From Gallibacterium genomosp. 3 (GTDB lineage Bacteria > Pseudomonadota > Gammaproteobacteria > Enterobacterales > Pasteurellaceae): a stretch of DNA of 64,000 nucleotides. The notes beneath the pieces are model-generated. The model was not told the DNA's origin. It searched no databases and worked only from the letters and a program-made list of their open reading frames with translations. Made by a program: the position numbers and the translations under genes. The stretch spans positions 1 to 64,000 of the forward strand of contig NZ_JTJR01000010.1 in NCBI RefSeq assembly GCF_001678475.1, written 5' to 3'. Positions 23,170-48,162 of this stretch are shown here, one piece after another. Within the stretch, counting starts at the first letter, position 1; each line of letters opens with the position of its first letter.

Positions 23170-23226
23170 TTTGTATGTTTGATGGCACAATCTATTTCAT
23201 AATTATTTAGATATTTTTCTCTAATT

Positions 23227-23466
23227 ACGATTTAGGTTTCGCCCTAAAGGGCGACTTCATTTTCTTTACTCGTGTAAAGAAACGAAGCAAAAGAAACACG
23301 CCCTCGCACACTTGCTACTCCTTATTCCAATAAGATTTTCCGGACGGCAAAAAACAGAGGTTTTTCTCACTCCGTTCAAAAAATGATCACTTTTTTTGCC
23401 TGAAAATCTTATTCCTATTCGGGCAAGTGTAAGAGGGAACCCACTAAAGTATTTATTAAGATTCCT
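23227..23466. repeat. Stem-loop repeat family 2, complete copy
   Basis: Contains a short palindrome CGCCCTAAAGGGCG at about 23236, then a long imperfect palindrome. The left arm at 23301-23340 (CCCTCGCACACTTGC ... ATAAGATTTTC) pairs with the right arm at 23402-23437 (GAAAATCTTAT ... AGTGTAAGAGGG). The inner parts GGCAAAAAA (from 23346) and TTTTTTTGCC (23391-23400) continue the pairing. The right arm and flank recur at positions 1-66. No protein is supported. It looks like a non-autonomous intergenic repeat able to fold into a large RNA or DNA hairpin. Confidence 0.75.
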
Positions 23467-23471
23467 AATAA

Positions 23472-23670
23472 AACTTATATTTCGCAGTTTTTAATTATCA
23501 TAGATATCGTAATAAAGTAGCTAGAACTTCAATCGAAGCGCTTGTCTGTGTATTAGGTTGGTGTCTTGGTGGTGTGGTAGGTATTGGTACTTTAGCTTTT
23601 GCCTTCGGCATTGGTTGGATTTTACAATTCACTCTAGTGAAAGTTATTCAACCGCTGATTAAAAAGTAAC
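23472..23670 (+). pseudogene. 3' remnant of a YczE/YitT-like membrane protein gene
   Basis: Translating from 23472 gives a short run with RTSIEALVCVLGWCLGGVVG, then IGTLAFAFGIGWILQF, which resembles the last helices and the glycine-rich VGIGT motif of YczE-type membrane proteins. No start codon or upstream part exists: a stop lies just before and the stem-loop repeat occupies that place. After GTG the sequence has AAAA; with one A fewer the frame would continue as VKVIQPLIKK and stop at 23670, whereas the actual frame stops at 23663. It is therefore a truncated and probably frameshifted relic. Family assignment is from remembered motifs and is moderate. Confidence 0.55.
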
Positions 23671-31603: not shown

Positions 31604-31640
31604 CATCTCCCCTAACCCCTCTTCACTAGTGAAGAGAGAA
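31604..31640. repeat. Hairpin repeat family 1, solo copy after fruA
   Basis: CATCTCCCCTAACCCCTCTTCAC followed by a central TA and GTGAAGAG. It lies 8 bases after the fruA stop and is a likely terminator. The right half has decayed (GAGAGAAATCTC instead of GAGGGG...GGAGATG). Confidence 0.7.
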
Positions 31641-31647
31641 ATCTCGG

Positions 31648-31954
31648 CATCTCCCCTACCCCCTCTTCACAAGTGAAGAGGGGAATCTTTCGGTGAAAAG
31701 GCTTAGTTCGTGATTTTTGGCTAGTCTGTAAAGGCTTAACCAGTGATTTTTGGCTAGCTTGTATTAACGTTTTAGTTAATCGGTATTAATCATTTTTGCA
31801 ATGTTACATTGGTGTGTATCTAATCAGTGTTTATCCTTTTAGCGAATCAAGATTACGTATTTTTAACGCATCTGTTCTTACCAAAATCTACTAAATATTC
31901 TTCAAGTGCTGAACGGCTCCCCTCTTCACTAGTGAAGAGGGGCTGGGGGAGATG
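31648..31954. repeat. Hairpin repeat family 1, composite 307-bp element
   Basis: The ends are near-perfect inverted copies: CATCTCCCC at 31648 with hairpin CCTCTTCAC/GTGAAGAGG, and at the other end hairpin 31919-31942 followed by GGGGGAGATG ending at 31954. Each end is itself a palindrome. The inside (about 235 bases) has two copies of GTGATTTTTGGCTAG and no convincing gene. It is about 85% identical by eye to 47712-47970. The arrangement resembles a non-autonomous mobile element (MITE-like) or two terminators flanking a spacer. Confidence 0.75.
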
Positions 31955-31984
31955 TCGTTTTTACCACAATGCACTAACCATTTT

Positions 31985-32133
31985 TGTTTTATCTAATCAA
32001 TTTTTATCATTTTAGCGAATTAAGATTACGTATTTTAACGCATTTATTCTTGCCAAAATGTACTAAATATTTTTCAAGTGCTGAACGGCTCCCCTCTTCA
32101 CTCGTGAAGAGGGGCTGGGGGGGGGGGGAGATG
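31985..32133. repeat. Hairpin repeat family 1, partial tandem copy abutting tgt
   Basis: Matches the right half of the preceding element (about 31810-31954) and ends in hairpin CCCCTCTTCAC/GTGAAGAGGGG at 32091-32114, then CT, a run of 12 G (32117-32128) and AGATG. The next three bases are the complement of the tgt TAG stop. On the minus strand it would act as the tgt terminator. Confidence 0.75.
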
Positions 32134-35679: not shown

Positions 35680-35698
35680 GCATCTCTGCATCTTCCGA

Positions 35699-35737
35699 CA
35701 TCCCCCCTCTTCACAAGTGAAGAGGGGGGGGGGGATG
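35699..35737. repeat. Hairpin repeat family 1, solo copy between menC and birA, with G11 tract
   Basis: CATCCCCCC, then CTCTTCAC, a 2-base centre and GTGAAGAG lead into 11 G (35724-35734) and ATG, ending exactly before the complement of the birA TAG stop at 35738. It lies between convergent genes and would work as a terminator on either strand. Confidence 0.8.
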
Positions 35738-36679
35738 CTACCCAGCAGCCCTTAATGAAATTTCGCCAATAGCAAAAGTTTGAATATCCCCTTGTTCTGT
35801 TTGCAAGAGTAACTCTCCAAGCGGATTAATCCCCATCGCAATACCGCAAATTTGCTGTTGCTCAAGTAATAATTTAACTGGTTTTTTATAAAAATAGTCA
35901 TATTGTTGCCATGCAGTGAGCAAAGTCGTTAAGCCTTGTGTACTAAATTGGGATAAAACTTGATTAATCTGTTGAATAAGTCGGGCAATGATCTGATTAC
36001 GATTTACTTGTTTTTGTTGGCTTAACATAGCAATTGGCTGATCGATCGAAGTGTCTAACGGAAGATGAATATTCAACCCTAATCCAATCACCACTTGGTA
36101 ATCAAATGAAGTAGGATTTTGTTTCATCTCAATTAAAATTCCACCTAGTTTTTTCCCTGCCAACCAAATATCATTCGGCCATTTTAATTGAACTTGTTGA
36201 TAACCGAGAGAGGTTAATGCCTGGGCCACTGCAATCCCAATCGCTAAACTTAAACCTGAAAGTTGGGTGTGTTGTGGAAAGCAATGGTAAAAACTTACAA
36301 TTACTTGTCCTGCAAAAGGAGAAATCCATTTACGCCCACGACGTCCGCGACCTGCAGTTTGATACTCCGCTAAACAAACACTGTTATTAGGAAGCTGTGA
36401 CAAATGATCCAGTAGATACTGATTAGTAGAATCAATGATAGGCAACACAATTAAATGATTATGAGGTAGTGTTTGTTGTAGGTAGATATGATCCAATAAT
36501 TCCGCCACCGGTTGCCAAATACAATCTGTTTCAGTTTGTTCAATCTGAATCCCTTGTTGAGTTAATTCAGTTAAGATGTTTTGTAATTGATCTTCCGTAA
36601 GATTTAGGGTTTGGCTAAGTTGTTGATAGCAATGTGGTTTACCGTCTGCAAGTTGCTGTAAGAGTTGTTGATTCATCAT
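35738..36679 (-). CDS. birA: Biotin-protein ligase / biotin operon repressor BirA
   Basis: A 313-residue bifunctional protein. The amino end (about 1-60) is a winged-helix DNA-binding domain (DGKPHCYQQLSQTLNLTEDQL); the ligase domain has the adenylate-binding loop AGRGRRGRKW, LKWPNDIWL and GGILIEMKQ; a small SH3-like carboxyl domain follows. It attaches biotin to acetyl-CoA carboxylase and represses biotin genes. The protein ends GEISLRAAG, close to the E. coli end, and its TAG touches the hairpin repeat. Confidence 0.93.
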   Translation of the reverse strand: MMNQQLLQQLADGKPHCYQQLSQTLNLTEDQLQNILTELTQQGIQIEQTETDCIWQPVAELLDHIYLQQTLPHNHLIVLPIIDSTNQYLLDHLSQLPNNSVCLAEYQTAGRGRRGRKWISPFAGQVIVSFYHCFPQHTQLSGLSLAIGIAVAQALTSLGYQQVQLKWPNDIWLAGKKLGGILIEMKQNPTSFDYQVVIGLGLNIHLPLDTSIDQPIAMLSQQKQVNRNQIIARLIQQINQVLSQFSTQGLTTLLTAWQQYDYFYKKPVKLLLEQQQICGIAMGINPLGELLLQTEQGDIQTFAIGEISLRAAG

Positions 36680-47664: not shown

Positions 47665-47711
47665 TTGGTAGTTATATAGCTAATTTTTTCTAATCTATCT
47701 ATATCTCTCGA

Positions 47712-48149
47712 CATCTCCCCTACTCCCTCTTCACAAGTGAAGAGGGGAACCTCTTGATGAAAAAGCTCAGTTAGTGATTTTTGACTAGTCTGTAAAGGTA
47801 CAGCCAGTGATTGTTGGCTAGCTTGTATTAACATTTTAGTTAATCAGTATTAATCATTTTGCAAGACTACATTGGTATGTATCTAATCAGTGTTTATCGT
47901 TTTAGCTAATCAAAATTACTTATTTTTAACCATCTATTCCTACCAAAATGTACTAAATACTCTTCAAGTGCATCTCCCCTAACCATCATTTACAAATGAA
48001 TAGGGGAACCTTTTGGTAAAAAGGCTCAATTCGTGATTTTTGGCTAGCTGTAGTGGTATACTAATTTTGCAGTCTGTAGTGATCCACTAAATTATCAAGC
48101 ACAAAAAAATACCCCTCTTCAGTAGGTCTGAAGAGGGGTTAGGGGAGAT
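47712..48149. repeat. Hairpin repeat family 1, two joined copies between a LysR gene and groEL
   Basis: Begins CATCTCCCC with hairpin CCTCTTCAC/GTGAAGAGG, runs through about 235 bases matching 31684-31918 (GTGATTTTTGACTAGTCTGTAAAGG, TATCTAATCAGTGTTTATC and others), and meets a second, degenerate left end at 47971. It then continues for about 140 bases to hairpin 48112-48138 and GGGGAGATA. The order suggests one copy inserted in, or recombined with, another. The rest of 47665-48162 holds no gene. Confidence 0.75.
48112..48138 (-). terminator. groEL terminator formed by the repeat's end hairpin
   Basis: Perfect 11-base inverted repeat CCCCTCTTCAG / CTGAAGAGGGG with a 5-base loop. On the minus strand it is followed by TA and a run of seven T, a strong intrinsic terminator 25 bases after the groEL stop. 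Confidence 0.85.
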
Positions 48150-48162
48150 ACCGGTGAATGAA

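Follow-up and report, generated by a model that had tools for sequence, protein, structure and literature searches.

A REPIN-like palindromic repeat family at gene-order breakpoints in Gallibacterium genomosp. 3

The window analysed here, i.e. the whole stretch of 64,000 nucleotides, corresponds to C10, one of the 54 contigs of a draft genome of 2.45 Mb (G000). Eight copies of a palindromic hairpin occur in it at three loci: a cluster of four behind fruA, a single copy in the menC–birA gap and a group of three in the gap separating a LysR gene from groEL. The cluster behind fruA starts with a single hairpin unit, 8 nt past the stop codon of fruA (31604..31639, plus strand), in which the tag CATCTCCCC precedes a stem-loop. 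This is followed by a complete element, E1 (31648..31954, plus strand), which has a left hairpin at 31648-31683, an AT-rich interior and an inverted right hairpin at 31919-31954 with the tags facing outwards, and then by a partial copy (31955..32133, plus strand), which comprises the right half of the interior from approximately 31990 and a right hairpin at 32091-32133, and whose edge provides the stop codon of tgt. The preliminary description of this DNA counted three hairpins behind fruA, one fewer than the four present (31616, 31660, 31919 and 32091). The tail of the right hairpin beside tgt carries 12 consecutive G (32114-32126), possibly a length-variable tract.

The single hairpin between menC and birA (35692..35739, no strand assigned) is flanked on both sides by tag-like sequence. 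The LysR–groEL cluster, earlier listed under the one range 47712-48149, is a composite of a truncated copy, E2, with a left hairpin and interior and without a right hairpin (47712..47970, plus strand), the left end of another copy (47971..48052, plus strand), whose hairpin at 47971-48006 is degenerate, an IS-end remnant, AGTGGTATACTAATTTTGCAGTC (~48049-48075), and a reverse hairpin unit behind groEL that is followed by ATTTTTTT and is the sole canonical intrinsic terminator of the set (48112..48150, minus strand). The sequence of the IS-end remnant has many copies in one of the three congeners compared (G001, G002 and G003); it recurs in G003 and G001, and there precedes an ORF similar to an IS3-type orfA. 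Rfam identified only 6S RNA in the window. An unrelated repeat of approximately 310 bp (CGCCCTAAAGGGCGACTTC..) lies at 23176-23482 and has more than 20 partial copies in G000, many at contig ends; it also occurs in the congeners, and its position in G001 and G003 is taken by approximately 5.3-5.5 kb of different DNA.

Each unit consists of the tag CATCTCCCC, a gap of approximately 3 nt and a 24-nt stem-loop, CCCCTCTTCAC..GTGAAGAGGGG, and is asymmetric, the tag standing at one side of each hairpin only. Two such units, inverted and with their tags outward, enclose an AT-rich interior of approximately 235 bp to form the complete element, full copies of which measure 227-307 bp in G000; single hairpins are remnants or ends. 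Two features of a MITE, viz. terminal inverted repeats (of at least 36 bp) and a common interior, are present, and inverted homology between units is limited to 33-40 bp. That the repeat family is real, as first proposed, is clear from its counts in the window: CATCTCCCC occurs six times against 0.13 expected, a number reached by no shuffle, and CCCCTCTTCAC with at most one mismatch occurs 13 times against 0.38 expected, again with no shuffle as high. The likeness of about 85% reported between 31648-31954 and 47712-47970 was borne out by alignment of 31640-31960 with 47706-47971, which gave 88% identity across approximately 268 bp. The single strand of E1 folds into a long hairpin in which left and right ends are paired (z -6.3).

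A covariance model made from 15 units and run against G000 found 20 distinct units at ten loci, every one of them intergenic. Outside the window these are C34:391-617, C34:4487-4719, C34:18514-18792, C11:109772-110003, C25:67997-68079 and beyond, C22:18847 and C8:25101. The interior is alignable in eight copies genome-wide, partial ones included, and is not confined to the two loci at which it was originally seen. With C34:391 left out, the flanking genes are convergent at six of nine loci (fruA/tgt, menC/birA, LysR/groEL, leuD/tpiA, the response regulator torR/cysI and the C8 locus), co-directional at two (slipin and brnQ on C25; the iron ABC protein gene afuA and manA on C22) and divergent at one (a DeoR-type gene and gshF at C34:4487).

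None of the three congeners has a match to the complete element. A search of related species, on the other hand, revealed that a related hairpin is widespread in the bacterial family, the core ATCTCCCCYARCCCCTCTT occurring exactly in 75 of 140 Pasteurellaceae genomes and in 22 of 43 genera, with no match to a reversed control pattern and with at most 29 exact core matches in any one relative. The unit reads (C)AAATCTCCCCTA(A/G)CCCCTCTTTRCTAAAGAGGGG in these genomes, its hairpin form being (C)AAATCTCCCCTA(A/G)CCCCTCTTT..AAAGAGGGG, and it frequently forms tail-outward inverted pairs, 150-165 or 340 bp long, in which the ends are conserved and the interiors vary. The uptake motifs AAGTGCGGT or ACAAGCGGT are present in the relatives' loci that were read. 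Tandem copies of the element, in units of approximately 187 and 375 bp, were seen at L101:770-1320 and L096:1126-1648, with fewer copies at the same sites in related genomes. By a simple ORF rule for gene orientation, 42 of 51 loci in the relatives are co-directional (one sits between pheS and pheT), six convergent and three divergent, compared to a 40/9/9 split among the window's own gene pairs, and none of the 51 lies inside an ORF. The claim that the repeat sits only between convergent genes thus holds at the three window loci and fails beyond them, both in G000 (6/9) and in the relatives (6/51), where co-directional placement, named at the outset as an observation that would speak against it, prevails. 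When GTDB genomes, G000's own records excluded, were scanned with the G000 tag, matches appeared in Dokdonia and Sinomicrobium (Bacteroidota); Dokdonia (L048 and L053), although of another phylum, has hairpin pairs that share the architecture, tag and stem (CATCTCCCCTAGCCCCTCTTCAAAGAGGGG), a likeness that may reflect common ancestry, transfer or convergence.

Gene order around the window copies differs between G000 and its congeners. The congener arrangements are fruA>|<LysR in G001 and G003 and asnB>|<tgt-queA-menC>|<groEL in G002, with which G001 agrees for menC|groEL, and in G001 and G003 a block equivalent to 12.0-25.5k of the window runs directly into birA. The junctions in G000 are instead fruA>|<tgt, menC>|<birA and LysR>|<groEL; all three bear the repeat and all three are absent as junctions in the congeners. 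Judged from gene order, the difference is explained by two inversions and one block insertion. A second region shows a similar pattern: the three congeners all have tpiA>gshF> as neighbours, and G001 and G002 keep gshF..leuD colinear; on C34 of G000 the 13.7 kb from gshF to leuD are inverted with respect to tpiA and bear an element at each end.

Each of the five element junctions that were testable in the two regions is a breakpoint, compared to two of approximately 41 other junctions, viz. the repeat-free breakpoints at 25.5k and 41.35k; an indel at 23.1-23.8k, if included, would make a third. A hypergeometric estimate gives roughly 1e-5, or 1.6e-4 with two syntenic element loci added; it uses approximate counts and is descriptive only, because the regions were chosen for holding elements and breakpoints come in pairs and are not independent. 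Among the seven convergent junctions of window 12-50k (four breakpoints, three elements) the association is not significant (4/35). Three element loci are syntenic, viz. slipin/brnQ, afuA/manA and torR/cysI (the last with one extra gene in G002 and left out of the hypergeometric test), so that rearrangement is not needed for an element to be present. The first two are syntenic in G002, where the sequence is too diverged to place an insertion, and most element sites are rearrangement breakpoints, which precludes a clean empty-site comparison there. The inversions at repeats in G000 can be errors of the draft assembly, though the copies differ by at least 12%.

The reading we favour, with a probability of roughly 0.5, is that this is a REPIN-like, now probably immobile palindromic family whose hairpins served as breakage and recombination sites. 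Its copies may earlier have been dispersed as a hairpin-bounded element by an activity that recognised hairpins and can no longer be detected in G000. Since each hairpin is a palindrome, inverted homology or a cleavable cruciform would be available to any pair of copies, which could have acted as the sites of breakage and recombination that gave rise to inversions joining fruA to tgt, the LysR gene to groEL and leuD to tpiA. As wholes, the elements flanking the inversions are in direct orientation; recombination between inner, mutually inverted hairpins would preserve that arrangement and is compatible with it, using homology of just 33-40 bp, and an alternative step would be cleavage of the hairpin and subsequent rejoining. 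At the new junctions the hairpin would then be the remaining 3'-end structure and may protect mRNA ends, and the local convergent bias would be a consequence of inversions between the 3' ends of genes and not of targeting. This interpretation is supported by the independent inference of recombination at copies of the same repeat for the capsule loci of Actinobacillus pleuropneumoniae (PMC6008488), in which the hairpin itself was previously noted; its link to synteny breakpoints is new.

A less probable reading, which nevertheless deserves consideration, is that convergent gene ends are merely tolerant, the inversions having come first, e.g. through IS activity, and the repeats having been inserted later. 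The IS-end remnant within the LysR–groEL cluster, an IS copy that adjoins menC in G003 and the two repeat-free breakpoints in the same stretch would all fit such an order of events. Against it, element junctions coincide with breakpoints (5/5 versus two in approximately 41), the window junctions have lost their original terminators, and the element edge truncates tgt. Rather unlikely is a far broader proposal, in which a RAYT-independent superfamily, alike in sequence and architecture in Pasteurellaceae and Flavobacteriia and moved by an unnamed hairpin-processing enzyme, would have repeatedly caused inversions at gene 3' ends and then supplied replacement transcript ends.

The ends of the rearranged genes bear on the order of events. 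Where the corresponding 3' ends are readable, ordinary stem-loops are present in most cases in the congeners, and at the three window junctions of G000 the repeat is the only 3'-end structure. The G000 Tgt protein ends GKPVP*, its stop codon TAG lying at the element edge, and the congeners continue GKPVPPL..; MenC is one or two residues shorter in G000 than in the congeners. These ends suggest that the junctions formed at the repeat, with later insertion of the repeat accompanied by deletion being a possible alternative. The idea that the hairpin ends double as intrinsic terminators did not survive in general, since only one of the eight window hairpins has a T-run (48112-48139, minus strand, behind groEL, with 7 T in 8 nt) and the other seven have none on either strand; terminator-like matches over the whole region number 13 against a background of 12.1. 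The hairpins could protect mRNA ends or assist Rho. We consider it improbable that the repeats are bidirectional terminators selected for convergent genes and copied by recombination or gene conversion: strong hairpins do stand directly behind stop codons, that of the groEL side has 7 T in 8 nt, and no other terminator was seen in G000 at junctions where congeners have theirs, but such an account is at odds with the seven hairpins lacking T-runs, with the 42 of 51 co-directional loci in relatives, pheS-pheT included, and with a common interior of approximately 235 bp that is superfluous for termination.

Considering mobility, the common interiors point to past dispersal of the repeats, and their present mobility is unsupported. 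No gene for PF01797 (RAYT) was found in G000, no hairpin lies within approximately 1.5 kb of the HUH-gene loci fetched from relatives and Bacteroidota genomes, and the RAYT-like genes read in relatives lie among another palindrome; with no hairpins near the HUH-gene loci checked, RAYT was rejected as the mobiliser. At L054:690-2600 (G023), a RAYT-like ORF lies in arrays of a different palindrome, GCACCAGCCTGGAGGCTGGCGC, with which it probably forms a separate REP/RAYT system. Target-site duplications of 2-6 nt were at background in 24 pairs, and an autonomous element with the same ends was not found in G000. One candidate, L099:717-2168 in G061, in which a 1.4-kb tail-outward pair encloses an IS110-like transposase gene, was rejected, the gene having probably inserted into an element interior. 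Of the non-autonomous mobile element originally envisaged, the dispersed non-coding family with hairpin ends is supported in G000, and the autonomous relative with a transposase and the target-site duplications are not. That no mobilising enzyme was found counts against the REPIN-like reading. A classical MITE, i.e. a deletion derivative of a DDE transposon, would explain the terminal inverted repeats of at least 36 bp and the longer inverted extension of a subset of the copies in relatives, but is doubtful given target-site duplication at background, no transposase gene found with these ends, and ends that are themselves palindromes.

If the link to breakpoints holds, a unit of approximately 36 bp would suffice to direct inversions in this bacterial family and to determine the choice of gene ends that become neighbours, and would offer a simple account both of gene-order shuffling and of the proposed capsule-locus exchange in A. 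pleuropneumoniae. A REPIN-like family without the usual transposase would also provide a test case for the need for RAYT.

The preliminary description knew no named family of this structure; REPINs, however, share its geometry (PMC3116915). Like REPINs (PMC3116915, PMC8049555), the element consists of two inverted palindromic units around a variable spacer, is extragenic, folds into a long hairpin and leaves single units as remnants. REPINs are paired REPs mobilised by RAYT, for which no gene (PF01797) was found in G000; REP tags are GTAG/GGAG or CGTC, 5' of the palindrome, whereas here the tag is CATCTCCCC or AAATCTCCCC; REP/REPIN sequences commonly exceed 100 copies per genome, compared to 20 units in G000; and the spacer here is approximately 235 bp. 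The family has a REPIN-like form but is not classed as a REPIN, since tests for an associated RAYT gene and for the REP tag sequence were both negative. It also resembles the GTAG/CGTC REP superfamilies (PMC3733652) in that both are made up of small palindromes in intergenic DNA, tagged at one end and often paired in opposite orientation; those lie mostly between co-directional or convergent genes, and differ in their tags, and PMC3733652 names no Pasteurellaceae genus searched for. Within the same bacterial family, Hin-1 and Pam-1 of Haemophilus and Pasteurella (PMC2267715) are likewise repeated intergenic stem-loops, Pam-1 (155 bp, 12 copies) being set beside the window repeat by description and not by sequence. 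They are reported with uptake-sequence motifs, whereas the window contains no AAGTGCGGT and one ACAAGCGGT, none in the hairpins, and an uptake-sequence dyad was rejected as the identity of the repeat. A counterpart was noted in passing by Bosse et al. (2018; PMC6008488), who found inverted repeats of 35-46 bp flanking the capsule loci of A. pleuropneumoniae and suggested a cpxA terminator role and recombination between copies around the capsule genes. These repeats, CAAATCTCCCCTAT..CCTCTTTACTAAAGAGGGG, are the same hairpin and tag, in a variant with the AAATCTCCCC tag and a TTTRCTAAA loop as against the CATCTCCCC variant here, and were described as capsule-locus boundaries only and not as a dispersed family.
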